DNA of 64,000 nucleotides from an uncultured Candidatus Cenarchaeum sp. (GTDB lineage: Archaea > Thermoproteota > Nitrososphaeria > Nitrososphaerales > Nitrosopumilaceae): the NCBI GenBank assembly GCA_958295735.1, contig OY282369.1, positions 62,001 to 126,000 on the forward strand, given 5' to 3'. A model generated the notes under the pieces. It made no database searches. It had not been told where the DNA came from and saw only the letters and a program-made list of their open reading frames with translations. The translations under genes and the position numbers were made by a program. Of this stretch, positions 3,745 through 62,372 are shown in pieces. The number at the start of each line of letters is the position of its first letter. The stretch's first letter is position 1.

Positions 3745-5433
3745 CTACCCGTGACGCCCCAGTTCCGCGAGCGACTCTTCCTTCTTGGCAAGCGCGTACG
3801 GGTCGTCCGGGACGACGTCCAGCCGCCTGTCATAGTGCGCGACCGCCTCCTCGTGCCGCCCCAGTTCCGCGAGCGACACTCCTTTCGCGACATGCGCGCG
3901 GGAGTCGCCCGGATCCAGGGCCAGGGCCCGGTCGCAGTGCATGACCGCCTCCTCGTGCCGCCCCAGTTCCGCGAGCGACACTCCTTTCGCGACATGCGCG
4001 CGGGAGTCGCCCGGATCCAGGGCCAGGGCCCGGTCGCAGTGCATGACCGCCTCCTCGTGCCGCTCCAGTTCCGCGAGCAACTCCCCCTTTCCGACAAGCG
4101 CGTGCGGGTCGTCCGGATCCAGGGCCAGGGCCAAGTCGTAGCACTCCTCCGCCTCCCCGTGCCGCCCCAGCTTTGCGAGCGACTCCCCCTTCCTGACGAG
4201 CGCGTGCGGGTAGTCCGGATCCAGGGCCAGGGCCCGGTCGTAGCACTCCACGGCCTCCCCGTGCCGCCCCAGCTCCGCGAGCGACGTCCCCCGCATGGCA
4301 TGCGCGCGAGAGTCGCCCGGATCCCGGGCCAGGGCCCGGCAGTAGTGCATGACGGCCTCCCCGTGCTTGCCCATCCACGCAAGCGACTCCCCCTTCCTGA
4401 CGAGCGCGTGCGGGTAGTCCGGATCCAGGGCCAGGGCCCGGTCGTAGCACACCACGGCCTCCCCGTGCCGCCCCAGCTTTGCGAGCGACACCCCCTTCCT
4501 GACGAGCGCGTACAGGTAGTCCGGATCCAGGGCCAGGGCCCGGTCGTAGCACACCACGGCCTCCCCGTGCCGCCCCAGCTCCGCGAGCGACTCCCCCTTT
4601 CCGACAAGCGCGTACAGGTCGTCCATATCCCGATCCAGGGCCCGGTCGTAGCACTCCACGGCCTCCCCGTGCCGCCCCAGCTCCGCGAGCGACTCCCCCT
4701 TCCTGACGAGCGCGGAGTCGTCCCGATCCAGGGCCCCGTCGTAGCACTCCACGGCCTCCCCGTGCCGCCCCAGCTCCGCGAGCGACTCCCCCTTTCTGAC
4801 GAGCGCGCAGGGATCGTCCCGCCGTACGGCAAGCGCCATGTCGTAGTACATGATCGCATCCACGTACTCGCGCGAACGGGACAGGCCGTCCCCCACGTGC
4901 AGGCAGAAATGGCGGTTGCTGGAGTGGATCTCAAGCATGATGCATCTCATGAACGCCAGGACGGCTCCAAAATGCCGGTTGAGCTCGATCGGCGGCAGGT
5001 CCGAGGACCCGTGGACCCTGCGATGCCTGTGGACGAACAGGGCATCGAGCGTTGCCCGGCGCGGTCCTCGCAGGCAGCGGTCGAACGCGCGCGGCATGCC
5101 GATTTCGTTCAGGATGTTTTTTATGGAATCGACGTTCTGGAAATTCATGGAAAACACGATGCGCCGCGCCAGCGAGTCCCCGCCAGGCGGCTCGGGACTA
5201 GGCAGTTCGCCGTCCACAAGCTTGTCGGGGGATACCTTTCCCTCGTCGATCAGCGTTTCGACGGTATGCCTCAGGAACTGCTCGAGCACCGTGACCAGCC
5301 CCACGGTGCAGCAGTTCCCCGCAAAGTAGTCGACGCGCTTCATCTTGGACTTGATCCGGCCAAACTCCGCGAATACCGAACCGATGTCCTGCTCGCGCGC
5401 CGCCTCGTCGATGCGCCTGAATATTATCCGCAT
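3745..5433 (-). CDS. HEPN-TPR protein, cassette copy 1
   Basis: 562 residues. The first ~170 form an alpha-helical domain with a conserved LVTVLEQFLRH helix and the sequence R136-H-R-R-V-H141, which fits the HEPN RNase signature R-x4-H with a polar residue after Arg. From about residue 170 the rest is 34-residue TPRs (core GEAVECYDRALALDPD..ALVRKGESLAELGRH), about eleven, some nearly identical at DNA level. HEPN domains are often metal-independent RNases in toxin-antitoxin and abortive-infection systems; TPRs usually bind a partner. Nuclease activity is inferred. The gene lies 119 bp downstream of the small acidic-tailed gene (5553-6152), as in the other cassettes. ATG 5433 lies 29 nt after its own TATA box. 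It ends in TAG. Confidence 0.8.
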   Translation of the reverse strand: MRIIFRRIDEAAREQDIGSVFAEFGRIKSKMKRVDYFAGNCCTVGLVTVLEQFLRHTVETLIDEGKVSPDKLVDGELPSPEPPGGDSLARRIVFSMNFQNVDSIKNILNEIGMPRAFDRCLRGPRRATLDALFVHRHRRVHGSSDLPPIELNRHFGAVLAFMRCIMLEIHSSNRHFCLHVGDGLSRSREYVDAIMYYDMALAVRRDDPCALVRKGESLAELGRHGEAVECYDGALDRDDSALVRKGESLAELGRHGEAVECYDRALDRDMDDLYALVGKGESLAELGRHGEAVVCYDRALALDPDYLYALVRKGVSLAKLGRHGEAVVCYDRALALDPDYPHALVRKGESLAWMGKHGEAVMHYCRALARDPGDSRAHAMRGTSLAELGRHGEAVECYDRALALDPDYPHALVRKGESLAKLGRHGEAEECYDLALALDPDDPHALVGKGELLAELERHEEAVMHCDRALALDPGDSRAHVAKGVSLAELGRHEEAVMHCDRALALDPGDSRAHVAKGVSLAELGRHEEAVAHYDRRLDVVPDDPYALAKKEESLAELGRHG

Positions 5434-5444
5434 GGTTGCAACCG

Positions 5445-5470
5445 GCCGTACGGCTCGTTGCTATTTATAT
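5445..5470 (-). promoter_or_regulatory. TATA box and GCCGTACGGC palindrome of HEPN-TPR copy 1
   Basis: On the minus strand ATATAAATA (5470-5462) is followed by the perfect palindrome GCCGTACGGC (5454-5445) and then the ATG at 5433. With the usual archaeal spacing, transcription should start at about 5441, right beside the palindrome, a position suited to an operator. The arrangement is repeated at copies 2 and 3, and imperfectly at copy 4. Confidence 0.65.
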
Positions 5471-5552: not shown

Positions 5553-6152
5553 CTAGTCGTCCTCAACCAGCGCGAGTTCCCAGGTCCTGGCATGTTCACG
5601 GCGGTACTTGCGTTCATCTTCCCAGTTTCGCTTTTCGTCATTTATGACCATCTCTATGCACCTCCGTGCCGACACTTCGTGGTAGTACGGCCAAGGTTCT
5701 GATGATTTTGTCGCTTCCGCGCGCTGTTCCGTCGCCTGCTCCGCGCGCTGTTCCGTCGCCTGCTCCGCGCGCTGTTCCGTCGCCTGCTCCGCGCGCTGTT
5801 CCGTCGCCTGCTCCGCGCGCTGTTCCGTCGCCTGCTCCGCGCGCTGTTCCGTCGCCTGCTCCGCGCGCTGTTCCGTCGCCTGCTCCGCGCGCTGTTCCGT
5901 CGCCTGCTCCGCGCGCTGTTCCGTCGCCTGCTCCGCGCGCTGTTCCGTCGCCTGCTCCGCGCGCTGTTCCGTCGCCTGCTCCGCGCGCTGTTCCGTCGCC
6001 TGCTCCGCGCGCTGTTCCGTCGCCTGCTCCGCGCGCTGTTCCGTCGCCTGCTCCGCGCGCTGTTCCGTCGCCTGCTCCGCGCGCTGTTCCGTCGCCTGCT
6101 CCGCGCGCTGTTCCGTCGCCTGCTCCGCGCGCTGTTCCGTCGCCTGCACCAT
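5553..6152 (-). CDS. small acidic-tailed cassette protein, repeat-expanded (copy 1)
   Basis: 199 residues from ATG 6152, chosen because it lies 25 nt from the centre of the TATA box (6174-6180); the upstream ATG at 6161 would be too close to it. After M-V-Q come 17 copies of the octapeptide ATEQRAEQ plus a partial one, then a unique part ([18 protein letters not shown], followed by a charged helix) and the tail W-E-L-A-L-V-E-D-D. The family has six further members here (66, 106, 50, 49, 116 and 49 residues) that share the promoter and tail but differ in the middle. It is very hydrophilic, likely coiled-coil, with no signal peptide. It precedes a HEPN-TPR gene, so an antitoxin or regulator role is a guess. 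Confidence 0.7.
5715..6143. repeat. 24-bp in-frame tandem repeat, about 18 units
   Basis: The 24-bp unit GCTGTTCCGTCGCCTGCTCC plus four bases is repeated without visible variation and encodes ATEQRAEQ on the minus strand. The duplicated gene at 17760-18080 has a 12-bp unit (ATEQ) at the same position, so unit and copy number have changed since the duplication. Confidence 0.95.
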
Positions 6153-6173
6153 GCGTGGCATGGATCTTGCTCG

Positions 6174-6180
6174 TATTTAA
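6174..6180 (-). promoter_or_regulatory. TATA box of small cassette gene, copy 1
   Basis: Minus strand TTAAATA followed by ACGAGCAAGATCCATGCCACGC up to the start. The block TTAAATACGGGCAAGATCYACG is conserved upstream of the family members, including those whose coding parts differ. Confidence 0.7.
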
Positions 6181-13236: not shown

Positions 13237-14329
13237 CTGCCGCCTCCCCCTGGGCGGCCCACCCCGCGGCCCCCCGATCCCGTCGGCAGGACGGCCGCCG
13301 CCCGGAGGCTGGCCGGCGCCGCGCTTCCCGCGATGCGCCGTATCGCATCCTGGCGCGGACTGCGACAAGCGAGAACGGCGCCGCCGCGGGCGCGGCGGGC
13401 TGCCCGGCCGGTATTGTGGCGAAAGGGGCCCCCGCCGCCCGGCCTTTCCGGCCGCCCGGCGCGCCCCGCCTTCCGCGCAGGCATGCTGCCGTCCCGGGGC
13501 GCGGCGGGCGGCGGGAAGGCAACCGCGCACCGCCGCGGCATCGGCGAGCCCGGGATCGCGGCCGGCCCGGATCCCCCCGCGGCGGAGGAATGGCTGTTGG
13601 GATCGGCGGCCGATGCCCCGCCGGGCCGCGCTGCCGCCTACCCGTGACGCCCCAGTTCCGCGAGCGACTCTTCCTTCTTGGCAAGCGCGTACGGGTCGTC
13701 CGGGACGATGTCCAGCCGCCTGTCATAGTGCGCGACCGCCTCCTCGTGCCGCCCCAGTTCCGCGAGCGACACTCCTTTCGCGACATGCGCGCGGGAGTCT
13801 CTAGGATCCCGGGCCAGGGCCCGGTCGTAGTGCATGACCGCCTCCTCGTGCCGCCCCAGTTCCGCGAGCGACACCCCTTTCGCGACATGCGCGCGGGAGT
13901 CTCTAGGATCCCGGGCCAGGGCCCGGTCGTAGTGCATGACCGCCTCCTCGTGCCGCCCCAGTTCCGCTAGCAACTCCCCCTTTCCGACAAGCGCGTGCGG
14001 GTCGTCCAGATCCAGGTCCAGGGCAAAGTCGTAGCACTCCTCCGCCTCCCCGTGCCGCCCCAGCTTTGCGAGCGACACCCCCTTTCCGACAAGCGCGTAC
14101 TGGTAGTCCGGATCCATGGCCAGGGCCCGGTCGTAGCACTCCACGGCCTCCCCGTGCCGCCACAGCTTTGCAAGCGACGTCCCCCGCATGGCATGCGCGC
14201 GGGAGTCGCCCGGATCCATGGCCAGGGCCCGGCAGTAGTGCATGACGGCCTCCCCGTGCTTGCCCATCCGCGCAAGCGACTCCCCCTTCATGACGAGCGC
14301 GTACGGGTAGTCCGGATCCATGTCCAGGG

Positions 14330-16643
14330 GTGTAGACTTACGTCCATTGCCTAGCCGCGCCTGATGGGGCGCCACCACGCAGGCGAGCAGTGCGCCGGCA
14401 GGCGCGGGCGGCCGCCAGAGCAGGCCGTTCCCGCATCGGGGGGCCGGCGGGCGGGCAGGCGCGGGCGGGCAGGCGGGCGCGGACGGCCGCCAGAGCGGGG
14501 CTCCGTCCCGCCGGAGGCCCGCCGAGCGCGCCGCGGGTCAACATTGCTTCACCATCTTGTAGCAATGTTTCAGTAGGCACGCTTAAGGATCACCGGTCCG
14601 TGACCCCATCCGTGCCAGACTCGGAAACGGTGCTGTTGCGGAGGGAGCTGGTGGCGGTGACCCGGCTCCTGGATGACCTGAAGGCAAAATACGCGAAAGA
14701 CACGGGGGACATGAGGCTGGAGATTGCCGGGCTGCGGGGCGAGATCGATCGCCTGAATGTCGCGGCGGCGCAGCACGCCGGCTGCTGCGGGGACAAGGCA
14801 GAGATTGCCCGGCTGCGGGGCGAGGACAAGGCAGAGATTGCCCGGCTGCGGGGCGAGATCGATCGCCTGCGGGGCGGCAACGATCGCCCCGGGGCAGGGC
14901 CGGCGGCGCCGGCGGCGCGGAGCCGCGCGGCGGGGAATGCGGCGCCGGGCGCGCGCGGCGGGGAATGCGGCGCCGGCGCCGGGGGCGATGCTGCCAAGCC
15001 GGGGCGGGAGCCCGCCGGGGGTGAGAAGGACGCGGGCGCGATGGCCGCGGAGCTGAAGGATGCCAAGAGGCGGCTCGCCTTGTACGACCACCACAACAGG
15101 ACCGATGCCAGGGCGTACAACGCCGATCGGGCCAAGTTCCGCAGGGAGAACGGCACGTACGACAGCGACCGCAAGCCGGGAAAGATCGGCGCGCCGGCGG
15201 GGCACAAGGGGGCGTCGCACCGGCACAAGCCGGGAAGGAAGACCGTCGCCAAGCTGCACGCGTGTGATTACTGCGGGTCCTGCGAGCACCTCAAGCCGCT
15301 GCGGCCGGCCAACAGGATCGCCCTGATTCTGGAAAGCGACGGCAGCATCACGCCCGTCGGCATCTGGGCCGAGCGGGCAAATTGCACGAAATGCTGCAAG
15401 ATCAGCGAGGCGAAGTCGGAGGCGATTCCGGGCACGCAGCTGGGGCTGGCGCTGCTCATGATCGTGGCCGCGCACGTCGCGAAGGCCCTGCCGGACGCGG
15501 ACATCGCCGACCTCATGGAGCAGCTGCACGGCCTGAAGATCTCGCCGTCCGCGGTGCTGAAGGCCCGCAGGGCCATCGCCCGCGTCCTGGAGGCAGTGTA
15601 CCGGCGCATCCTGGAATACATGGTGGCCTACGCCACGTTCGTGCAGTTCGACGAGACCCCCATCAGGATCGCCGGGGCCCAGGGGTACGTCTGGCTGGCC
15701 TGCTGGGGGGATGCGGTGTACATGGTGTGCGTTCACAGCAGGAGCGCGGCCGTGCTGGACGCCCATTTCCCGGGGCTGAAGGACAAGCCGGCGGTGACCG
15801 ACCAGTACTCGGGGTACAACGGCATCAAGGAGAGGCAGGCCTGCATGATCCACATCCTGCGGCATTCCGAGAGCGGCGTGGTCCGCACCAAAGACGCGGA
15901 CGAGAAGGAGAAGGAGAAGCGGCCGTACGATCGGCTGCGGGGCATGTACAGGACGGTCAAGCCCATGGACACCGCGGGCGAGGCCACGATCAAGGAGCTG
16001 GACAGCCAGGTGCTCGACATAGCGGGCGAGTACGGCGAGGGGCACAAGATGCACACGGCCCTCTCCAACGCGCGGCCGAACATGTTCACGTCCCTGAGGC
16101 ATCCCGGCATGCCGTGCCACAACAACCGGGTGGAGCAGGCCATACACGAGGGGCCGGCCAAGGAAAAGAGGTCGCGCCGCCAGCTGAGGAGCGCGTCCGG
16201 CATGCGCTGCCTCGCCGTGACGTGCTCCGTGTTCCAGACGGGGAAGCGCCGCGGAATCTGGCCGGCGCGCATACTGGAGGCCGCCGCCACCGACCCGAAC
16301 TGGAACATACTCGATCCGCCGGCCACCGGGCCGCCGCCCCCCGGCAAGGGCGGCAGCAGCGGCAGCCGCCCGGCCGACGACGACGACGGCTTGCGCCGTG
16401 CCGCCCCGTGCTGAGGCGGCGCAAGCGGTACAACCAGCCCGGATGCCGGCACGGCCCCGGGCGGGGTTCGCCGCGCCGTCGGATCGCGCCGAATGATGCG
16501 CCGCGGCGGGGGCGCCCCGCCCGCCGGATGCGGCCGGAGCCGGCCGGACGGCCGGCAGGCGCGCGGCCCGCGAAGCGGAGGGCCAGCCGCGCCGGCTCGG
16601 GGCCGCGTTTGGGCGCGGCCGGGCAATGGACGTAAGTCTACAC
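14330..16643 (+). mobile_element. complete IS66-family insertion sequence
   Basis: 2314 bp with perfect 22-bp inverted repeats: GTGTAGACTTACGTCCATTG plus CC at 14330-14351 and its exact inverse at 16622-16643. It carries a single transposase gene, without the tnpA/tnpB accessory genes of larger IS66 members. Target duplication: 14322-14329 and 16644-16651. A 57640-57756 fragment is a second, older end of the same element, and the MITE family uses the same ends. Confidence 0.92.
14612..16414 (+). CDS. IS66-family transposase
   Basis: 600 residues from GTG 14612; this start aligns residue for residue with the start of the other IS66 transposase (VPDSETVLLRREL here, MAESGVALLRKEL there) and lies 28 nt from CTTAAG. 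A coiled coil with repeats of KAEIARLRGE is followed by a Gly/Ala linker, a two-Cys finger (CDYCGSC) and CTKCCK, then the DDE core: D347 (QFDETPIRI), D397 (VTDQYSGY) and E508 (NNRVEQAIH). C-terminal tail Gly/Pro/Asp-rich. It ends in TGA and has no lesion. Confidence 0.88.
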   Translation: MPDSETVLLRRELVAVTRLLDDLKAKYAKDTGDMRLEIAGLRGEIDRLNVAAAQHAGCCGDKAEIARLRGEDKAEIARLRGEIDRLRGGNDRPGAGPAAPAARSRAAGNAAPGARGGECGAGAGGDAAKPGREPAGGEKDAGAMAAELKDAKRRLALYDHHNRTDARAYNADRAKFRRENGTYDSDRKPGKIGAPAGHKGASHRHKPGRKTVAKLHACDYCGSCEHLKPLRPANRIALILESDGSITPVGIWAERANCTKCCKISEAKSEAIPGTQLGLALLMIVAAHVAKALPDADIADLMEQLHGLKISPSAVLKARRAIARVLEAVYRRILEYMVAYATFVQFDETPIRIAGAQGYVWLACWGDAVYMVCVHSRSAAVLDAHFPGLKDKPAVTDQYSGYNGIKERQACMIHILRHSESGVVRTKDADEKEKEKRPYDRLRGMYRTVKPMDTAGEATIKELDSQVLDIAGEYGEGHKMHTALSNARPNMFTSLRHPGMPCHNNRVEQAIHEGPAKEKRSRRQLRSASGMRCLAVTCSVFQTGKRRGIWPARILEAAATDPNWNILDPPATGPPPPGKGGSSGSRPADDDDGLRRAAPC

Positions 16644-17658
16644 GTCCAAGGCCCGGTCGCAGCACACCACGGCCTCTCCGAGCCGCCCCAGCTCCGCGAG
16701 CGACTCCCCCTTCCTGACGAGCGCGTACGGGTAGTCCGGATCCATGGCCAGGGCCCGGTCGCAGCACACCACGGCCTCCCCGTGCCGCCCCAGCTTTGCG
16801 AGCGACACCCCCTTCCTGACGAGCGCGCACATGTCGTCCAAATCCCGATCCAGGGCCCGGTCGTAGCACTCCACGGCCTCCCCGTGCCGCCCCAGCTCCG
16901 CGAGCGACTCCCCCTTCCTGACGAGCGCGGAGTCGTCCCGATCCAGTGCCCCGTCGTAGCACTCCACGGCCTCCCCGTGCCGCCCCAGCTCCGCGAGCGA
17001 CTCCCCCTTCCTGACGAGCGCGCAGGGATCGTCCCGCCGTACGGCAAGCGCCATGTCGTAGTACATGATCGCATCCCTGTACTCGCGCGAACGGGACAGG
17101 CCGTCCCCCACGTGCAGGCAGAAATGGCGGTTGCTGGAGTGGATCTCAAGCATGATGCATCTTATGAACGCCAGGACGGCTCCAAAACGCCGGTTGAGCT
17201 CGATCGGCGGCAGGTCAAATGACCCGTGGACCCTGCGGTGCCTGTGGACGAACAGGGCCTCGAGCGTTGCCCGGCGCGGTCCTTGCAGGCAGTGGTCGAA
17301 CGCGCGCGGCATGCCGATTTCGTTCAGGATGTTTTTTATGGAATCGACGTTCTGGAAATTCATGGAAAACACGATGCGCCGCGCCAGCGAGTCCCCGCCA
17401 GGCGGCTCGGGACCAGGCAGTTCGCCGCCCACAAGCTTGCCGGGGGATACCTTTCCCTCGTCGATCAGCGTTTCGACGGTATGCCTCAGGAACTGCTCGA
17501 GCACCGTGACCAGCCCCACGGTGCAGCAGTTCCCCGCAAAGTAGTCGGCGCGCTTCATCTTGGACTTGATCCGGCCAAACTCCGCGAATACCGAACCGAT
17601 GTCCTGCTCGCGCGCCGCCTCGTCGATGCGCCTGAATCTTATCCGCATGGTTGCAACC

Positions 17659-17759: not shown

Positions 17760-18080
17760 CTAGTCGTCCTCAACCAGCGCGAGTTCCCATTTCCTGGCAT
17801 CTTCGCGGCGGTACTTGCGCTCATATTCCCATCTTCGCTTTTCGTCATTCATGACCATCTCTATGCACCTCTGTGCCGACTCTTCGTGGTAGTACGGCCA
17901 AGGTTCTGATGATTTTGTCGCTTCCGCGCGCGGCGCGCGCTGCTCCGTCGCCTGCTCCGTCGCCTGCTCCGTCGCCTGCTCCGTCGCCTGCTCCGTCGCC
18001 TGCTCCGTCGCCTGCTCCGTCGCCTGCTCCGTCGCCTGCTCCGTCGCCTGCTCCGTCGCCTGCTCCGTCGCCTGCACCAT
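17760..18080 (-). CDS. small acidic-tailed cassette protein, copy 2
   Basis: 106 residues from ATG 18080, 25 nt from the TATA box. M-V-Q, eleven ATEQ tetrapeptides, RAPRAE, then the unique part ([18 protein letters not shown]) and a charged helix ending WELALVEDD. Compared with copy 1 the repeat unit is half as long and the residues around it differ, while the last 50 residues are nearly the same. It precedes HEPN-TPR copy 2 by 111 bp. TAG stop. Confidence 0.7.
   Translation of the reverse strand: MVQATEQATEQATEQATEQATEQATEQATEQATEQATEQATEQATEQRAPRAEATKSSEPWPYYHEESAQRCIEMVMNDEKRRWEYERKYRREDARKWELALVEDD
17940..18071. repeat. 12-bp in-frame tandem repeat, 11 units
   Basis: Unit GCTCCGTCGCCT repeated eleven times without visible change; encodes ATEQ on the minus strand. 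Confidence 0.95.
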
Positions 18081-19900: not shown

Positions 19901-20101
19901 CTAGTCGTCCTCAACCAGCGCGAGTTCCCATTTCCTGGCATCTTCGCGGCGGTACTTGCGCTCATATTCCCGGTTTCGCTTTTCGTCATTCATGGCCATC
20001 CCTATGCGCCCCCGTGCCGACACTTCGTGGTAGTACGGCCAAGGTTCTGATGGTTTTGCCGCTTCCGCGCGCGGCGCGCGCTGTTCCCTCGCCTGCACCA
20101 T
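19901..20101 (-). CDS. small acidic-tailed cassette protein, copy 3 (no repeat expansion)
   Basis: 66 residues, ATG 20101: MVQAREQRAPRAEAAKPSEPW, then the usual helix and WELALVEDD. It represents the family without amplified repeats. Its promoter has decayed: the box that reads TTTAATTTTTGG (6176-6187) and TTTAATTTTTGG (18103-18114) in the sister copies reads TTTGGTTTTTGG here, so expression may be lost. No HEPN-TPR gene follows directly; the decayed IS66 copy B and then small gene copy 2 come next. Confidence 0.55.
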   Translation of the reverse strand: MVQAREQRAPRAEAAKPSEPWPYYHEVSARGRIGMAMNDEKRNREYERKYRREDARKWELALVEDD

Positions 20102-22489: not shown

Positions 22490-25400
22490 CTAGCCGCAGT
22501 TGGCAACGAACGTGACGGTCTGCGATATGGAGTCGGCCCGGAGCACTTCCAGCGCCACCAGGTTGATCCGGAAGTCGACGTCCACGCTGCCGCCCGGCGG
22601 CGTCCCCCCCGGTATCTCGGTGCCCGCGGCCAGCGGGGTGGAGTCGGCCCGCCTCGGGGAGGCGCCGTCCAGGCCCACGGCCATCTCCGTGTACGAGAAC
22701 GGCAGCGTGGCGCCCGGTATGGGGTCGCCGCCCCTTAACTGCGTCCAGTCCGTGGCGGACACGGACACCGCGGGCATCGGGCCGGTTCCTATGTTCGTCA
22801 CGGTCTGCCGCACCGGCCTGCTCGTGCTCCCCGCGGTCAGGGGGGGGAGGGCGAGCGCCGACTTTTCCAGGTCTATCCCGCACGCGTCCAGGCCGCGGAG
22901 CAGATCGGGGGCCCGCACCCACTCCGCCGCCGTGCCGGACACGGACCACGCGCCGTACGTCACGGGAAACCGCAGGTCGCCGGAGCCGTCCATGCCCGTG
23001 CGGCCGAGCGGGCCGCCTTCCAAGTTGGCCGCGCCCGCCACGTTCCCCCCCGCGAGGGACGGGTCGCCCCCGGCCGGCACCAGGGCGCCGCCCAGCACGC
23101 GGACGGCCTCGTACGCGGCGTATGCGGGCGTGGCCGATCCGGCGGGCGCGCCCGTGATGCGGTCTATGTAGTCCGTTACGCCGTTGCGATCCACGGCGAA
23201 CTGGACGGCGGACAGCCGCGTGTCGCGGGCCAGCTGTATGGCCGCCGCATCGGCCAGTATCGCGGGGGACGCGGCCACCCCGTCGCCGGCCCCCGCCCCC
23301 GCTCCGCCGGGCGCGAACCACGCGGCCTCCCGCGCCGGGCTGCCGGGCGGCACGCCGCCGGCGAGGGCGGCGAGCTCCGCGTCCGAGCCGACGTACACTA
23401 CGGCCACGCTCCCGGCGCCCCGGCTCCCGGCCGCTCGCGCGACGGCCTCTTCCACGGGCCCGGCCGCCGCGCCGCCTTCCCGGAACTCGACGGGCGCGCC
23501 GAATTGTATCCCGAGCGGCCCCAGGTCCGACGCCAGCGGCCCCAGCAGCCCGTAGTCCGCGCCGCGCAGGCCCGCCTGCACCACCGGGACCACGGCAGCG
23601 TGCCCGCCCAGCGCCACCTCGGTCGCGAGGGCCCTGGCCAGGTGCGCCGTCCCGGGCTCCAGCCTGAATATACGGTCGCCCTCCACGGCAAGCGAGCGCG
23701 CCGCCGACGAGTGCGATATTACCGTGATGCCGTTCCCCGAGGCGTACCCCGCCATGCCGGCCAGCGCCGCATCGGAGGCCGGGCCCACGTACAGGAGGGG
23801 GCCCTCCCCGGCGGCGTGCGCCCCGCGGAGCGCCGCCTCCGCCGCCGCCGCCCCCGCGCCCGGCGGGAGCGCGTACTCCGACGTGCCGACGCAGAACGGG
23901 TAGCCGCGCGACTCCGAGACGGCGTTGAAGGCGGAGGCCCCCATCCGCGCCGCCGCCGCCGAGGGGTCGCCGGGGCCGCCATGGAACACGCCCGCCCGCA
24001 CGAGCGGCTTGTCGTCGCAGGACCCCCCCTGCCCGCCGGTGGACTTTGGGCCGGGGTTCTTGAGGTCGTTCCCGAAGCGGTCCGTTATGTCGGCGGACAG
24101 GTAGAACCCGACCGCGGAGCCGGCCGAGGCGGCCGCGCCCGCGCCCCACGACACCACGACGTTGCTGCCGAACGCGTCCGCCCCGGAGGCGCCGCCGCCC
24201 CCCGCCGCCGCCCCGTCCACCGTGATGTTCCCGTAGTGGGAGGGGAGCGAGAGCACCGGCTCCGAATAGACGGCGACGACGGAGCCGCCGCCCGCCACGA
24301 AGGCCCACAGGAAGGACGGGCCGTCGGAGTCCCGGGCGACCACCAGCGGCGCCCGCTCCCGCTCGTACCCCGCGCGCCCGTTGGTCACGAAGCCGTCGGG
24401 CAGCAGCACGGAGGTGGACCCGGGATCCGAGAACTCGGGGCCGGAGAGCGCGCCCCGCCTCTGGTCCGACACGGGCAGCGCGAAGGTCCTGTCCCCCCCG
24501 CTCCCGGATGCGGCGGGCGCGACGTCGTCCCCGGACAGGACGGCCGCCGCGCCGCTCCCGCCCCGCACCTCGATCTCCCCTTCTAGCGGCCCCGCCGCCG
24601 GCGCCGTCACCGCCTCGTCGAACGTGACTACAAGGCGCCCCGCGCCGCCGCCTTCCGCCAGGCGGAACGCGGCCGCGACGAGGACGGGGGGCGAGGAATC
24701 CGGCGCGTACGCGAGCGGTACGGCGGGCCCGCCGTACAGGTTGCCGGACGCGTCCGACACGAAGCCGCCGGGCAGCTCTACAGTAGCGGGGTCCAGGTCC
24801 GCCGCGTTGAGCTCTACGCGCTTGGCGCCGGAGACGTCCAGCGCGAACGCGGTATCTCCCGCGCGGCCGGACGCGGCGGAAGGGACGTCCGCGGCCGACA
24901 GGGCGACCGCCCCGCCGGCGCCGCGTATGACTATATTCCCCGCGAACGATTGCACATTCGGCGCGGCCGCGGCCGCCTCGCCGAACACGAGGGCGAGCCT
25001 GCCGTTCTCGCCGGCCTCCAGGTCGAGGGAGGCGGACGCGAGCGGGGGGGCCTGGCCGTCCGCCAGCTCCTGCCGGTACGCGCCGTCGCCGCGGAGGTTG
25101 CCCGCGGGTCCCGTCACCGCCGCGGGGTCCACGGTCACGGAGCCGGTGGCGTCGGGCGGCGCGGGCTCGCCGCCGAACCGCAGCACGTGGGTCTCGGTGC
25201 CGCTGCCCGACAGCGTGACGGGCCGGTCCGCGCCGCCTATACTGATCGGGCCGTACGCGGAGGCGCCGGCGCTCGCTGCCGCGTCGTAGCGTATCGTCGC
25301 CTGCTGGGGGCCGGTTATCTCGGCCGACAGGACGCCCAGCTCCGCTCCCGGGGCCGCGGCGGCGTACTCTATGGAGAACTGTTCCGCCGCTGTACTGCCG

Positions 25401-28400
25401 GTGTTGCCGTCGGCCGTATCTTGCGCCGCGTTTTCTGGTATGTCTACGAGTATCGTCCCGTCGGACGTGGGCGAGACCTCGAACGTGTACCTGGTGGCGC
25501 TGACGGACACGAAGTTCTCGACGCCGCCGTGGTCGGCCGTCCCCGAGAGCACGATGCCCGTATGATCGAACCCGGTGACGGGGCGGCTGAAGTCGACCCG
25601 GAAGGTGATCGTCGAGGCGTTGGTCGGGCTGCCGTGCTCGGTAGTGACGGTCGGGATCGGGGCCGTGGTCGGAGGGATCGGGGCGGGTTCGCCGTTGTAC
25701 GTTATGGAGAACTGTTCCGCCGCCGCGTTGCCGGTGTTGCCGTCTGCCGCATCCCGCGCCACATTGGCGGGTATGTCTACGATTACCGTCCCGTTGGTAG
25801 AGGGCGAGACCTCGAACGAGTACCTGGTGGCGCTGACGGACACGAAGTTCTCGACGCCGCCGTGGTCGGCCGTCCCCGAGAGCACGATGCCCGTATGATC
25901 GAACCCGGTGACGGGGCGGCTGAAGTCGACCCGGAAGGTGATCGGCGAGGCGCTGGTCGGGCTGCCGTGCTCGGTAGTGACGGTCGGGATCGGGGTCGGG
26001 GTCGGGGTCGGCGGAACTGTGGCGGGTTCGCCGTTGTACGTTATCGATAACGGCATTGCCTCCGCGCTGCCGATGCTGTCGTCGGCCGCATCCTGCGCCG
26101 CGCCTGCGGGTATGTCTACGATTACCGTCCCGTTGGTAGAGGGCGAGACCTCGAACGTGTACCTGGTGGTGTTGACGGCTGCGAAGTTATCGATGCCGCC
26201 GTGGGCAGCATCGCCCGAGATCACGATGTCCGTTTTCGCGAACCCGGTGACGGGGCGGCTGAAGTCGACTTGGAAATTGATCGGCGAGGCGTCGGTAGTG
26301 CTGGACTGCGCGGCCGTGACTGTCGGGACCGGGGCAGGGATCGGGGCGGGTTCGCCGTCGTACTCTATCGAGAACTGTGCCGCCGGCGCGCTGCCGATGC
26401 TCCCGTCGGCCGCATCCCGCGCCGCATTGGCGGGTATGTCTACGATTATCGTCCCGTTGGTAGAGGGCGAGACGTCGAACTCGTACCTGGTGGCGCTGAC
26501 GGGATCAAAGTTTTCGACGCCGTCGTGGTCGGCCGTCCCCGAGATCATGATGTCGGCTTTCGCGAACCCGGTGACGGGAAGGCTGAAGTCGACACGGAAG
26601 GTGATCGGCGAGGCGCTGGTCGGGTTGTCCTCCTCGGTCGTGACGGTAGGGAACGGCAGCGAGCTGTCGTAATCTATCGAGAACGGTTCCGACGCTGTGT
26701 TGCCGTTTCCGGCATCGTCATCCGCCACGTTTTCGGGTATGTCGACGCGTATGGTCCCGTTGTCCGAGGGCCTGACATAGAACTCGTACGTGGTGGCGTT
26801 GACGGGATCAAAGTGTTCGGCGCCGCTGATGGTGTTGCCCGAGAGCTCGACATCAGGCCGCTCGAATCCTTTGACGGGCTCGGTAAAGTTCACCGTGAAT
26901 CTGATCGGCGATTCGCGGGTCGGGCTCTGCTGCTCGGCCGTGACTCTCGGGATCGGCCTCGTGCCGTCGTACGTTATAGAGAACTGTGGCGCCGCTGTGC
27001 TGTCGGTGCCCGCGCTCCGGGCCGCGCCTGCCGGTATGTCGACCTTTATGGTCCCGTCGGACGTGGGCGAGACCTCGAACGAGTACGAGGCGCCGGAGCC
27101 CGCGAATCTTTCGACGCCGCGGTGTCCGGTCTCATTGGAGAGCATGATGGCGCTGGCATTGAATTCGGTGACGGGAAGGCTGAAGACGACCCGGAAGGTG
27201 ATCGTCGCGGCGTTGGTCGGGCTGTCCTCATCGGCCGTGACGGTAGTGGTCAGTAGCGAGCTGTTGTACGTTATCGAGAACGGTTCCGACGCTGTGTTGC
27301 CGTTTCCGGCATCGTCCACCACCACGTTTTCGGGTATGTTTACAAGTATGGTCCCGTCCGACGCGGGCCGGACCTCGAACGAGTACGAGGCGCCGGAGCC
27401 CGTGAAGTTTTCCACGCCGCGGTGTCCGGTCTCATTGGAGAGCATGATGGCGTCGGCCCCGAACTCTTTGACGCTCTCGCCGAACTCCACCGTGAACGGT
27501 ATGGAGGGGGCGCCGGTCGGGTCCGGCTGCGTGGAGTTTATGACGGGGGCGGGGGCGATCCTGTCTATTCTGATGCTCTCCTCGTTGGACTCCGCGTTCG
27601 CGTTTCCCGCCGCGTCCCGCACGCGGCCTGCAGGCACTCGCACCGTCAGGGTCTGCTGGTCGTCCGGATCATCCACGTCGAAGTCGTACGCCTCATCGAA
27701 GGGCCGGATCAGGCCGGCCGCACTTTCGGTCACGTACAGGGCGCCCGAGGCGGGATCGACGGCCACGCCGTACGGCGTGTTGATCGGGTCCTCTATGTCG
27801 GCGGCGTGGGTCCAGTCGGGGTGGTATATTCGGACGCGGCCGTCGCCGCCGGTCTCGGCCACGTACACGCGGCCCAAAGCGTCCACCGCCACGCCGGTCG
27901 GCCGGTCAAACGGGCCGGGCAGGTCGGCGGCGGCCTCGATGCTGTTGGGGGGGTATACGGGGACGGCGCTGGCGTTGGTGTCGGCCACGTACACGCGACC
28001 CAAAGCGTCCACCGCCACGCCGGCCGGGCCGTCGAGCCCGGGGATGTCGTAGATGTGGTTCAGGGAAAAGTCGTACACGCGGATGCGGTCGTTGCCGGTG
28101 TCGGCCACGTGTATGCGGCCGTACGGGCCGCCGGCCGCCACGCCGGCAGGGTTGTCGAACGAGCCGGGCAAGTCGGCAGCGTAGGTCCTGTCGGGGTGGT
28201 ACACGCGGACGCTGTCGTTGCCGGTGTTTGCCACGTACACGCGGCCCGAGGCGGCGTCGACCGCCACGCCGCGCGGGGCGTCGAGCCCCCCAATGCCGTC
28301 CACGCGATCCTGGGCCGGGTCATGCACCTGGACGCGGTCGTTGCCGCGGTCGGCCACGTACGTGATTCCCGAGCCGTCGACCGCGATTCCGGACGGGCTG

Positions 28401-48289: not shown

Positions 48290-49774
48290 CTATCCGAGCC
48301 GCTCCAGTTCCGCGAGCGACACTTCTTTCCTGGCTAGCGCGTACGGGTCGCCCGGAACGGCGCCCAGCCGCTCGTCGTAGTGTATGATCGCCTCCTCGTG
48401 CCGCCCCAGCTCCGCGAGCGATTCTCCTTTCTTGGCATGCGCGCGGGAGTAGCCCGGATCCAGGGCCAGGGCCCGGTCGTAGCACCCCATCGCCTCCCCG
48501 TGCCGCCCCAGTCCAGCAAGCGACGTCCCTTTCATGACATGCGCGCGGGAGTAGCCCGGATCCAGGGCCAGGGCCCGGTCGCAACACTCCACCGCCTCTT
48601 CGAATCGTTTCAGTTTCGCGAGCGACTCTACATTTCTGGCGAGCGCGTACGGGTCGCCCGGAACGGCGCCCAGCCGCCTGCCGTAGTGCACGACCGCCTC
48701 CTCGTGCCGCCCCAGCCCCGCGAGCGATTCTCCTTTCTTGGCATGCGCGTAGGAGTCGCCGGGATCCAGGGCCAGGGCCCGGTCGTAGCACTCCACCGCC
48801 TCCCCGTGCCGCCCCAGCTCCGCGAGCGATATTCCCTTCCTGGCGAGCGCGTACGGGTAGTCCGGATTCCGGGCCAGGGCCCGGTCGCAGCACTCTGCCG
48901 CCTCCCCGAATCGTTTCAGTTTCGCGAGCGACTCCCCCTTCCTGGCCAGCGCGTACGGGTAGTCCGGATTCCGGGCCAGGGCCCGGTCGTAGCACTCCAC
49001 CGCCTCCCCGTGCCGCCCCAGCTCCGCGAGCGACTCCCCCTTTCTGGCCAGCGCGGTGTCGTCCGGATCCGGGGCCCGGTCGTAGCACTCCACCGCCTCC
49101 CCGTGCCGCCCCAGCTCCGCGAGCGACTCCCCCTTTCTGGCCAGCGCGTACGGTTCGTCCCTCCGCGCGGCGAGCGACTTGTCGTAATACGCGATCGCCT
49201 CCGTGTACTCGCGCGATTGAAACAGGCCGTTCCCCACGTGCGTGTAGAAATGGCGGCTGCTGGAGGGGATCTCGAGCATGATGCAATTCATGAACGCGAA
49301 TACGACCCCGAAGCACCGGTTGATCTCGATCGGCGGCAGTTCCACGTGCGTGTGGACCGTCTCGTGCCTGTGGTTGAACAGGGTCTTGAGCGCTTCCCGG
49401 CGCGGCTCGCTCAGGCAGCGGTCGAACGCGCCCGGCTCGCCGATCTCGTTCAGGATGTTTTTTATGGAGTCGACGCTCTGGAAATTCAGGGAAAAAGCGA
49501 TGCGCCGCTCCAGCGTGGCCCCGTTGCGCCGTTCGGGACCAGGCAGTTCGCCGTCCACGAGTTCGTCGGGGGACACCTTTCCCGTCTTGAGTTGCGTCTC
49601 GACGACGTGCCTCAGGAACTGCTCGAGCACCGTGACCATCTTTACGTCGCAGCAGTACCTCGTCTTGTAGTCGGTCTGCTTCAGCTCCGACATGATCCAG
49701 CCAAGTCCCGCGAATATCGAGTCGATGTCCTGCCTGCGCGCCGCCTCGGTGATGCGCCTGAATTTTATCTTCAT
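48290..49774 (-). CDS. HEPN-TPR protein, cassette copy 3
   Basis: 494 residues, intact, ATG 49774, TAG stop. N-terminal HEPN-like domain about 55% alike to copy 1 by eye, with LVTVLEQFLRH-type helix (MVTVLEQFLRH) and R136-H-E-T-V-H141. About nine TPRs follow, several alternating between a LGRHGEAVECYDRALA and a LKRFEEAVECCDRALA type, so the array is not a simple amplification. It is 239 bp downstream of the small gene at 50014-50166. TATA box and palindrome as in copy 1. Confidence 0.8.
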   Translation of the reverse strand: MKIKFRRITEAARRQDIDSIFAGLGWIMSELKQTDYKTRYCCDVKMVTVLEQFLRHVVETQLKTGKVSPDELVDGELPGPERRNGATLERRIAFSLNFQSVDSIKNILNEIGEPGAFDRCLSEPRREALKTLFNHRHETVHTHVELPPIEINRCFGVVFAFMNCIMLEIPSSSRHFYTHVGNGLFQSREYTEAIAYYDKSLAARRDEPYALARKGESLAELGRHGEAVECYDRAPDPDDTALARKGESLAELGRHGEAVECYDRALARNPDYPYALARKGESLAKLKRFGEAAECCDRALARNPDYPYALARKGISLAELGRHGEAVECYDRALALDPGDSYAHAKKGESLAGLGRHEEAVVHYGRRLGAVPGDPYALARNVESLAKLKRFEEAVECCDRALALDPGYSRAHVMKGTSLAGLGRHGEAMGCYDRALALDPGYSRAHAKKGESLAELGRHEEAIIHYDERLGAVPGDPYALARKEVSLAELERLG

Positions 49775-50013: not shown

Positions 50014-50166
50014 CTAGTCGTCGTCCTCGACCAGCACGAATTCCATGGTCCTGGCATGCCTGCGGCGGGAGTCGCGGCCGCTATCCCACTCTTTTTTTTC
50101 GTCCTTCTCGTCCATCTCTTTGGAATACTCCTCCATGTATTTGGCTGATTCTGCTTCCCAATCCAT
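50014..50166 (-). CDS. small acidic-tailed cassette protein, copy 4
   Basis: 50 residues, ATG 50166, 25 nt from TATA box AATAAATA. Sequence type: M-D-W-E-A-E-S-A-K-Y, a Glu/Lys-rich helix (YMEEYSKEMDEKDEKKEW), RDSRRRHART, and the tail MEFVLVEDDD. No tandem repeats. It belongs to the same family by promoter, by HAR-T-x-E and by tail. It is the upstream partner of HEPN-TPR copy 3. Too short for most automatic gene calls. Confidence 0.65.
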   Translation of the reverse strand: MDWEAESAKYMEEYSKEMDEKDEKKEWDSGRDSRRRHARTMEFVLVEDDD

Positions 50167-51745: not shown

Positions 51746-51895
51746 CTAGTCGTCGTCCTCGACCAGCACGAATTCCATGGTCCTGGCATGCCTGCGGCGG
51801 GAGTCGCGGCCGCTATCCCACTCTATCTTTCCGTCCGCCAGCATCTCATCGATGTACTCCCCCAGGTATTTGGCTGATTCTGCTTCCCGATCCAT
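51746..51895 (-). CDS. small acidic-tailed cassette protein, copy 5
   Basis: 49 residues, ATG 51895; TATA box ATTAAATG at 51917-51924. MDREAESAKY, LGEYIDEMLADGKIEW, RDSRRRHART, MEFVLVEDDD. Ends and promoter nearly identical to copy 4 while the middle 15 residues are quite different, a pattern that suggests the middle part is the variable, specific part. No HEPN-TPR gene follows directly; MITE, IS481 copy B and small gene copy 4 come next. Confidence 0.6.
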   Translation of the reverse strand: MDREAESAKYLGEYIDEMLADGKIEWDSGRDSRRRHARTMEFVLVEDDD

Positions 51896-53280: not shown

Positions 53281-53631
53281 CTAGTCGTCCTCAACCAGTA
53301 CGAATTCCCAAGTATCGGCATATTCCTGGCGGGACTTACGGGCATAGTCCCACATCTCATCTTTGTCATCCAAGATCGACCTCCTGTCCTTCCGGTTCAT
53401 CTCTTTGATGTACTGCTCCCTGCACTCCCGCCTCATCTCTTCCATGCACTGCTCCCGGTACTCCCGGTACATCTCTTCAACGCACTGCTCCCGGTACTCC
53501 CGGTACATCTCCTCAGCGCACTGCTCCCTGGACTCCCGCCTCACCTCTTCGATGCGCTGCGCCCCGCCCTCACGGTCCACCCCTTCGATGCGCTGCGGCC
53601 CATACTTGGATGATCCTGTTGCCCGTTCCAT
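53281..53631 (-). CDS. small acidic-tailed cassette protein, copy 6 (coiled-coil repeats)
   Basis: 116 residues from ATG 53631, 25 nt from the TATA box at 53653-53660. Residues 33-80 are four 12-residue units (EYREQCVEEMYR type, each but one with a Cys), then KDRRSILDDKDEMWDYARKS and the tail TWEFVLVEDD. The repeat is unrelated in sequence to ATEQ but sits at the same place, so different members have amplified different segments. Four 12-bp repeats lie upstream of the promoter. Confidence 0.65.
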   Translation of the reverse strand: MERATGSSKYGPQRIEGVDREGGAQRIEEVRRESREQCAEEMYREYREQCVEEMYREYREQCMEEMRRECREQYIKEMNRKDRRSILDDKDEMWDYARKSRQEYADTWEFVLVEDD

Positions 53632-57957: not shown

Positions 57958-60267
57958 CTATATGTGCCGCCCTAGTCCCGCAAGCGACTCTCTCTTTCTG
58001 GCAAGTACGTGCGAGTCGTCCGGATCGGTGTCCAGCCGCCTGTCGTAGTGCATGACTGCCTCCTCGTGCCGCCCCAGTCCCGCGAGCGACTCCCCTTTCA
58101 TGACATGTGCGCGGGAGTGATCAGGATCCAAGGCCAGGGCACGGTCGTAGCACGCTACCGCTTCCTTGAATCGTCCCAGTCCCGCAAGCGACTCCCCTTT
58201 CATGACATGTGCGCGGGAGTGATCAGGATCCAAGGCCAGGGCACGGTCGTAGCACGCTACCGCTTCCTTGAATCGTCCCAGTCCCGCAAGCGAATCTCCC
58301 TTGCCGGCAAGTGCGATCGAGTCGTCCGGATCGGTGTCCAGCCGCCTGTCAAAGTGCGTGACTGCCTCCTTGAATCGTCCCAGTCCCGCAAGCGACTTTC
58401 CTTTCATGGCATGTACGGGCGAGTAGTCCGGATGCGAAGCAGGGATCCGGTCGTAGCACGCTACTGCCTCCTTGAACTGTCCCATCGCCGCAAGCGACAC
58501 TCCCTTGCTGGCAAGTGCGTACGAGTCGTCCGGATCCAAGTTCAGGGCACGGTCGTAGCACGCTACCGCTTCTTTGAATCGTCCCAGTCCCGCAAGCGAC
58601 TCTCCCTTTCTGGCAAGTGCGTGCGAGTCGTCCGGATCGGTGTCCAGCCGCCTGTCAAAGTGCGTGACCGCCTCCTCGTGCCGCCCCAGCCCCGCGAGCG
58701 ACTCCCCTTTCTTGGCATGCGCGCGGGAGTAATCAGGATCCAGGGCCAGGGCACGGTCGTAGCACGCTACCGCCTCCTTGAATCGCCCCAGTTTCGCAAG
58801 CGACTCCCCTTTCATGGCATGCGCGCGGGAGTAATCAGGATCCAGGGCCAGGGCACGGTCGTAGCACGCTACCGCTTCCTTGAATCGCCCCAGTACCGCA
58901 AGCGACCTTCCTTTCATGGCATGTGTGCGGAAGTCGTTCGGAACAGTGTCCAGCCGCCTGTCAAAGTGCGCGACTGCCTCCTTGAATCGTCCCAGTACCG
59001 CAAGCGACGCCCCTTTCATGACATGTGCGTGCGAGTCGTCCGGATCCAAAGCAGGGATCCGGTCGTAGCACGCTACTGCCTCCTTGAACTGCCCCATCGC
59101 CGCAAGCGACTCTCCCTTGCCGGCAAGTGAGATCGAGTCGTCCGGATCGGTGTCCAGCCGCCTGTCAAAGTGCGCGACTGCCTCCTTGAATCGTCCCAGT
59201 CCCGCAAGCGACTTTCCTTTCATGACATGTACGAGCGAGTAGTCCGGATCCAGGGCCAGGGCCAGGTCGTAGCACGCTACCGCCTCCTTGAATCGTCCCA
59301 GTTCCGCAAGCAACATCCCTTTCATTACATGTACATGCGGGCCGTCCGGATCCAGGGCCAGGGCCAGGTCGTAGCACGCTACCGCCTCCTCGAATCGTCC
59401 CAGTCCCGCAAGTGACACTCCCTTGCTGGCATGTGCGTACAAATCGTCCGGATCCCGGGCCAGGGCCAGGTCGTAGCACGCTACTGCCTCCTCGTGCCGT
59501 CCCAGGGCCGCAAGCGACTCTCCCTTTCTGGCAAGTACAGAATCGTCCGGATCCCGGGCCAGGGCCAGGTCGTAGCACGCTACCGCCTTTTCGTGCAACC
59601 CCAGTTTCGCAAGCGATTCTCCTTTTTTGCCAAGTATGTAAGGATCGTCTGGTCTTATGGCAAGCGACATGTCACAATACATGATTGCCTCTTGGTACTC
59701 GCGTGAATGAAACAGGCCCTCCCCCATGTGCCGATAAAAACTGTGGTTGTCGTGGTAGATCTCGGACATGATGCAGTTGATGAGTGTCAGGACTACTCCA
59801 AAACATCGGTTGATTTCAATTGGTGGTGATTTCTCGGTTGTGTGGACTATGTCGTTCCTGTGACTGAACAAATCTCGAAGTTTTGCCCGGTATGGTTCAC
59901 ACAAGCAGTCGTCAAACACATGGGACATGCCCATTTTGTTCAAAACGCCTTTTACGGTATCAATATTCTGAAAATTATGGTGTAAAGAAATGTATCGTCC
60001 CAGCGATACCCCTTTCAGCTTTTCAGGACCCGGCAATTCACCGTTTATGAAAGGTTGGGGGGGTATTTTTTCCCTCTCGATCAGCGTTTCGAGGGCATGC
60101 CTTAGGGACTGCTCCAACACGGTGACCAGTTTTATGATGCAAAGGTCCTTCATGGCGGCATTGGCACCCGTCAAGTTTGCCATGATCCAGCCCACTTCGT
60201 CAAACGTCGAACCGATCGACTGCGTGCGCGCCGCCTCGGTGATGCGGCGGCCGAATCTTATCCCCAT
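57958..60267 (-). CDS. HEPN-TPR protein, cassette copy 4
   Basis: 769 residues, intact, the longest and the least GC-rich of the family. HEPN-like domain with LVTVLEQSLRH and R137-N-D-I-V-H142, the most canonical version of the R-x4-H signature here (R-N-x-I-V-H). About seventeen TPRs of the LGRFKEAVACYDRALALDPD type follow, interleaved with a variant ending AVAHFDRRLDTDPDDS. Some adjacent units are identical at DNA level, so unit number probably changes by slippage. ATG 60267; TATA box 60306-60299; TAG stop. Its upstream partner (62223-62372) has been moved 1.6 kb away by IS481 copy A. Lower GC suggests more recent arrival or less decay. Confidence 0.82.
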   Translation of the reverse strand: MGIRFGRRITEAARTQSIGSTFDEVGWIMANLTGANAAMKDLCIIKLVTVLEQSLRHALETLIEREKIPPQPFINGELPGPEKLKGVSLGRYISLHHNFQNIDTVKGVLNKMGMSHVFDDCLCEPYRAKLRDLFSHRNDIVHTTEKSPPIEINRCFGVVLTLINCIMSEIYHDNHSFYRHMGEGLFHSREYQEAIMYCDMSLAIRPDDPYILGKKGESLAKLGLHEKAVACYDLALARDPDDSVLARKGESLAALGRHEEAVACYDLALARDPDDLYAHASKGVSLAGLGRFEEAVACYDLALALDPDGPHVHVMKGMLLAELGRFKEAVACYDLALALDPDYSLVHVMKGKSLAGLGRFKEAVAHFDRRLDTDPDDSISLAGKGESLAAMGQFKEAVACYDRIPALDPDDSHAHVMKGASLAVLGRFKEAVAHFDRRLDTVPNDFRTHAMKGRSLAVLGRFKEAVACYDRALALDPDYSRAHAMKGESLAKLGRFKEAVACYDRALALDPDYSRAHAKKGESLAGLGRHEEAVTHFDRRLDTDPDDSHALARKGESLAGLGRFKEAVACYDRALNLDPDDSYALASKGVSLAAMGQFKEAVACYDRIPASHPDYSPVHAMKGKSLAGLGRFKEAVTHFDRRLDTDPDDSIALAGKGDSLAGLGRFKEAVACYDRALALDPDHSRAHVMKGESLAGLGRFKEAVACYDRALALDPDHSRAHVMKGESLAGLGRHEEAVMHYDRRLDTDPDDSHVLARKRESLAGLGRHI

Positions 60268-62222: not shown

Positions 62223-62372
62223 CTAATCGTCCTCATCCAATATTAATTCTCTGGTCATGGCAAAATCACGGCTGATCTGGCTGGAATATTCGCGGAATCT
62301 CACCCTGTACTCGGAGGGCGTCATTTTGATGCGTCTCGCCATGTGTTTGAATATATCTGTCTGTTGTTCCAT
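62223..62372 (-). CDS. small acidic-tailed cassette protein, copy 7
   Basis: 49 residues, ATG 62372; TATA box ATTAAATA at 62394-62401. MEQQTDIFKH, then ARRIKMTPSEYRVRFREYSS, and the tail TRELILDEDD. The most divergent member, low GC like HEPN-TPR copy 4, its inferred partner. Promoter block ATTAAATAGGAGCAGGATCT is of the family type. TAG stop. Too short for most automatic gene calls. Confidence 0.6.
   Translation of the reverse strand: MEQQTDIFKHMARRIKMTPSEYRVRFREYSSQISRDFAMTRELILDEDD

Follow-up and report, generated by a model that had tools for sequence, protein, structure and literature searches.

HEPN ribonucleases underlie many toxin-antitoxin (TA) systems, abortive-infection systems and CRISPR effectors. 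The HEPN domain is recognized by two marks, an R-x4-6-H motif with a polar residue (N, D or H) after the arginine and an E-x3-[KR] motif (PMC3710099). In the LA2681 family, this domain is fused to TPRs or encoded in an operon with them, and the antidote gene lies 5' of the toxin gene in type II TA systems, MNT-HEPN among them (PMC3710099). Neither HEPN-TPR fusions nor antidotes encoded 5' of HEPN toxins are new. A small repeat-rod protein acting as a dedicated HEPN partner was found neither in family libraries nor in the open-licence literature that we searched.

The window, i.e. the whole stretch of 64,000 nucleotides analysed here, belongs to a 3.17-Mb genome that encodes archaeal AmoA and therefore comes from an ammonia-oxidising archaeon. 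Coordinates are those of the window unless the genome is specified. We propose, with a probability of about one half, that it carries copies of a multicopy module of two genes, one for a HEPN ribonuclease and one for a small protein that is its cognate partner. This partner would most likely act as an antitoxin-like brake, and its middle would be a slippage-prone helical spacer.

HEPN-TPR genes and the small genes upstream

The focal small gene (5553..6152, on the minus strand like all the small and HEPN-TPR genes of the window described below) encodes 199 aa. A HEPN-TPR gene of 562 codons (3745..5433) is located 119 bp downstream and encodes a HEPN domain (4876-5433) followed by about 10 TPRs. 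The first-pass annotation overlooked this directly downstream gene, and its overall interpretation of the small genes is supported in part. The 180-residue N-terminal part of the focal partner is found in 12 copies in the genome and always precedes TPRs. Upstream of each of the 12 genes, a small gene is found on the same strand; the distance is 111-323 bp in 11 cases and 1,955 bp in the remaining one. The chance of such an upstream gene is about 0.7% per HEPN-TPR gene, which gives about 3e-9 with four independent lineages. With one just upstream of each HEPN-TPR gene, the small genes seem to represent cognate partners of a new type. Twelve other small genes have no adjacent HEPN-TPR gene: nine precede a pair in tandem, on its 5' side, and the other three stand alone (at 2875, 818 and 2566 kb of the genome). 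Furthermore, the distances between small-protein tails follow those between HEPN domains (r=0.87, permutation p=5e-5). Orphan-plus-pair segments were duplicated as blocks along with the intervening DNA, and co-duplication of pairs contributes to this correlated divergence and could alone produce it.

Three other modules are found in the window. The small gene 17760..18080, which encodes ATEQ x11, is paired with the 5' part of a HEPN-TPR gene (16638..17648, 336 aa), the array of which is cut by an IS66 element; the probable 3' TPR part of the same gene lies at 13641..14378. An orphan small gene without repeat (19901..20101), whose divergent promoter block has 3 mismatches, is located 2,252 bp 5' of 16638-17648. 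The small gene 50014..50166, also without repeat, is paired with a HEPN-TPR gene encoding 494 aa (48290..49774). One orphan (51746..51895) is in tandem 5' of this pair and another (53281..53631) contains a Cys-containing 36-bp unit in 4.3 copies. Finally, a further HEPN-TPR protein of the window (57958..60267, 769 aa) has an RNDIVH motif and at least 16 TPR units. Its small gene (62223..62372) is the one located 1,955 bp upstream, a spacing that probably results from an insertion between the two genes.

TPR arrays are interrupted or frame-broken in three HEPN-TPR genes. The gene at 13641-17648 is split by an IS66-family transposase gene (14390-16414, plus strand): its HEPN part retains a few TPRs, other TPRs form a detached fragment, and the upstream small gene is intact. 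In the copies at genome 2299656 (L036:2657-4717) and 130873 (L037, genome 129005-130873), the TPR frame is apparently lost part-way, which reflects either assembly error or decay; their HEPN part is intact.

The HEPN-TPR genes carry upstream elements of their own. A TATA-like TATAAATAG and a palindrome-like CCGTACGG element (approximately 5444..5469, minus strand) precede the ATG of the focal partner. In eight of the 12 copies, a conserved TATA-like element followed by the palindromic GGCCGTACGGCC, or a sequence near it, is located 5' of the ATG. The copy at 57958-60267 has a different inverted repeat (AGGCCG..CGGCCT) at this place. Judged from their sequence, these inverted repeats are operator-like, and the HEPN-TPR gene probably has its own promoter. 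Given the apparent TATA box of the HEPN gene, the two genes of a pair are not necessarily cotranscribed.

The N-terminal domain is likely a HEPN domain, placement in a particular HEPN family being unproven. R-x4-H and E-x3-R are invariant in all 14 sequences compared, the 12 copies plus two relatives that belong to other genera (R136/H141 and E51/R55), and the residue after the motif arginine is H or N in every one of the 14, so that both superfamily marks are present. Moreover, the AlphaFold model is all-helical (pLDDT 83, pTM 0.84); the top PDB match in Foldseek is a HEPN toxin, 7ae2, at a level that is not significant (E=1.7, TM 0.34). HEPN-TPR proteins are predicted to be metal-independent RNases. 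Among described families, RiboL-PSP-HEPN (PF18735) shares with them the R-x4-H motif with H or N after R, the E-x3-R motif on an earlier helix and the all-helical fold predicted by the model. It matches the relatives with E-values of 8.4e-6 and 1e-5; for one copy of the window, the E-value is 0.0094. However, all scores are below the Pfam gathering cut-off of 28.4 bits (best 26.2 bits, for the relative L048; 16.3 bits for the window copy 59710-60267), the proteins found here have a fused C-terminal TPR array and an L-PSP or ParB partner was not seen. The LA2681 family has the same HEPN plus TPR architecture, but the partner is here a small repeat-containing helical protein, and no match to a Pfam LA2681 model was obtained for five N-domains at E<=10, a result that presupposes that Pfam includes this model and depends on HMMER filters. 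As in HepT/MntA (HEPN-MNT), a putative antidote gene lies 5' of the HEPN gene; however, the small partner is not a nucleotidyltransferase (none of the small proteins gave an MNT match), and the tyrosine of the HxY motif, at +2 in R-x4-H-x-Y, is present in only one of the 12 HEPN copies.

Small proteins with conserved ends and repeated middles

In the window, seven small genes, all on the minus strand, carry the same promoter/start block and encode a common C-terminal tail, E-[LF]-x-[LI]-[VD]-E-D-D, in agreement with the seven genes initially recognized. A profile search extended the family to 24 copies in the whole genome, of which the stretches around the members were read. The promoter/start block AAATRCGRGCAAGATCYAYRCCRCGCATGG has 23 matches in the genome (<=3 mismatches), all of which are starts of family members, whereas the reversed block gave none across the 3.17 Mb at the same threshold. 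The 24th gene (genome 2875178) has a shortened block. In the focal gene, this family-specific block of 30 bp (6149..6178, minus strand; genome 68149-68178) includes a TATA-like TTAAATA about 26 nt 5' of the ATG. This spacing, together with the fact that the corresponding codon is the sole ATG available in members without the first ATG, points to a leaderless start at 6152 as the most likely one.

Subfamilies conserve the last residues E-[LF]-x-[LI]-[VD]-[EK]-D-D, whereas the codons for them vary synonymously (CTC/TTA/TTG for Leu, GAC/GAT for Asp, GTT/GTC for Val). The reading frame is intact in 23 of the 24 genes, the exception being a frameshifted orphan (genome 2337527-2337803). The strong tandem periods found in the small genes (12, 24, 27, 36, 21, 42, 63, 72 or 84 bp) are all multiples of 3; arrays elsewhere in the window include periods of 13, 16, 17, 19, 20, 26, 28, 29 and 37 bp. 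Together, the periods, the tail and the open frames support the view that the small genes are protein-coding, and the periods imply that their length shifts in whole codons. Searches of family libraries, including curated and defence families, gave only weak low-complexity matches for the small proteins.

The focal array (5716..6147, minus strand) consists of 18.0 copies of a 24-bp unit, 100% identical and in frame. In the protein, which reads MVQ(ATEQRAEQ)17 [12 letters omitted] ... WELALVEDD, it corresponds to 17 full ATEQRAEQ units and a partial ATEQRAE. Other middles in the window are (ATEQ)x11, the 36-bp unit or unrepeated. Fixed ends with a fast-changing centre, as put forward from the window, are borne out by the common start block and tail and by the differing middles. 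Amplification holds as well, but not the number of three amplified middles: genome-wide, units of 8, 4, 12, 9 and 7/14 residues occur, with two kinds of 12-residue unit, and several members have no repeat at all.

Among close paralogues, the 24-bp unit is present in 18 copies in the focal gene (68 kb), 5.2 at 2871 kb and 1.9 at 2869 kb, and one close member, at 82 kb, has no array. At genome 2296966-2299442, three tandem small genes with near-identical ends, directly 5' of one HEPN-TPR gene, contain 8.1, 6.1 and 4.1 copies of a 36-bp unit and 2.9, 2.9 and 4.9 copies of a 27-bp unit, and can be viewed as a natural series for repeat-number change. Since paralogue arrays differ by whole units, repeats are gained or lost unit-wise and not by accumulating substitutions; as the focal copies are identical, their expansion is recent and differs from a residue-by-residue diversification. 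In the AlphaFold model of the focal protein, a single helix spans residues 2-149; after an interruption near SSEP comes a second one (155-198), with the acidic tail at its end. Hence, of the two roles suggested for the centre by the first-pass annotation, a spacer fits this single helix, but a specificity segment under diversifying change is not supported by the identical focal copies. Diversifying selection on the small genes is weakly hinted at by the non-repeat tail of one subgroup (23.5 nonsynonymous vs 2.5 synonymous changes), an excess over the neutral expectation that is marginal (p 0.01-0.07 depending on the mutation model) and that was not seen in the tail of another subgroup.

The acidic C-terminus of the small proteins, whose partners contain TPRs, recalls the EEVD tail of Hsp70/Hsp90, bound by carboxylate-clamp TPRs of consensus K5,N9-N6-K2,R6 (PMC2939883). 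However, over the 123 TPR units analysed here, position 5 is A, V, T or G, position 9 is mostly E, with N absent among the commonest residues, and positions 2 and 6 are partly R/K. Docking of the EDD end in such a clamp was therefore rejected, the canonical residues, including K5 and N9, being absent.

Occurrence in other genomes

A set of 200 related genomes, including one of the same genus, yielded no small gene, and a solitary HEPN-TPR homologue is present in two of them (G016 and G006). As these two homologues, from other genera of the family (L048 and L049, the latter looking frameshifted at its start), have no small gene, the family does not always require a small antidote. A sample of 398 genomes of the phylum gave HEPN-domain matches, mostly weak, in four other genomes, and no relative was confirmed by searching the HEPN alignment against IMG/VR and the GTDB contig set (source genome excluded). 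Among the matches listed for a tblastn search of plasmids with a relative's protein, mainly the TPR part was covered.

Possible functions of the module

What is observed is that all HEPN-TPR genes are paired with a small gene, that the two proteins diverge in a correlated way, that the HEPN motifs are present, that the promoter block is exclusive to the small genes and that repeats change in frame; from these observations we infer the brake role, partner binding and RNase activity. The small protein would be made first, from a strong leaderless promoter. Its conserved C-terminal helix and acidic end would bind its own HEPN-TPR protein and, once bound, it would restrain or gate the HEPN RNase. 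The middle would be a helical rod, altered in length in whole codons by slippage or unequal exchange, and may act as a spacer or valency element setting the reach of the protein and not as a residue-by-residue specificity code.

An antitoxin-like role is favoured by the location of the small gene 5' of the HEPN-TPR gene and by the fact that the latter never occurs without the former in the source genome. As in type II TA systems, the putative antidote is adjacent to and 5' of the HEPN-TPR gene, on the same strand in 12/12 cases and within 323 bp in 11. However, the constant accompaniment in the source genome is opposed by the solitary homologues in G016 and G006 and, together with the probable separate HEPN promoter, these homologues weaken a strict TA reading. 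If the brake is real, this twelve-copy family with dedicated partners would represent a new control of a HEPN-TPR enzyme in archaea, and partners with the same ends and very different rod lengths would provide a natural series for testing the role of repeat number. A broader proposal, rather unlikely as a whole, is that of an undescribed lineage-specific HEPN ribonuclease system. Each enzyme would be under its own helical-rod protein, rod length or valency would be re-set by in-frame amplification of any short codon run in the middle, and loci would gather tandem 5' cassettes of alternative rods, making the system a protein analogue of the repeat-RNA (type III) antitoxins.

The main alternative to a brake is an adaptor or activator role, a real but minor possibility. 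The small protein would be a cognate adaptor, bait or activator, either serving as a scaffold for the HEPN-TPR RNase or displaying a helix that resembles a target; a challenge, e.g. by a virus, would trigger the enzyme, and changes in repeat number would modify what is sensed. Pairing and correlated divergence fit this role equally. TPR arrays, typical platforms for protein binding, likewise differ in unit number here (3 to 16 detected per protein), and the extra small genes in tandem 5' of several modules resemble a stock of variants. However, identical focal repeats are poorly suited to encode recognition, and the libraries searched gave no convincing defence-family match.

It is unlikely that the modules merely reflect neutral or selfish amplification, in which an IS-rich, repeat-prone genome would have duplicated them and the middles would be slippage products tolerated in an unconstrained part of the protein. 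Tandem repeats and transposases are indeed common in the window, and the block duplication of orphan-plus-pair segments with intervening DNA would be expected from such a process. Moreover, HEPN dN/dS ranges from 0.4 to 1.5 in recent pairs and is near 1 in several of them, and these values, with the three damaged TPR arrays, make decay of some copies possible; one small gene is also frameshifted. However, the 23 intact small frames, the conserved acidic end and promoter block, the HEPN motifs kept in all 12 copies and the strong repeat periods that are always multiples of 3 argue against a lack of constraint.

A very improbable reading is that the HEPN-TPR proteins are eukaryotic-like TPR proteins through which a putative sponge symbiont interacts with its host, the small protein being a helper peptide. 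TPR proteins are among the eukaryotic-like proteins considered in sponge symbionts (PMC7848895), and the source genome is that of an ammonia oxidiser; however, TPRs also occur in free-living relatives (PMC7848895), the proteins bear a HEPN domain and an N-terminal hydrophobic leader was not evident by eye in the translations. Lastly, a type III-like system in which the tandem nucleotide repeats would be an RNA antitoxin is hardly credible and was rejected: a tandem-repeat locus that directly precedes a predicted RNase gene is reminiscent of the ToxIN layout (PMC8860590), but the repeats here encode protein in strong periods that are multiples of 3, repeats are absent from several paired members (window 50014 and 62223; genome 669999 and 2795144) and the amino-acid tail and stop are conserved across members.

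Besides the small-gene arrays, the window contains large tandem-repeat stretches at 25370-27452, 31314-31868, 33499-39953 and 44930-47517, with periods of 300-339, 117-126 and 144 bp, which possibly encode repeat-domain surface-type proteins.
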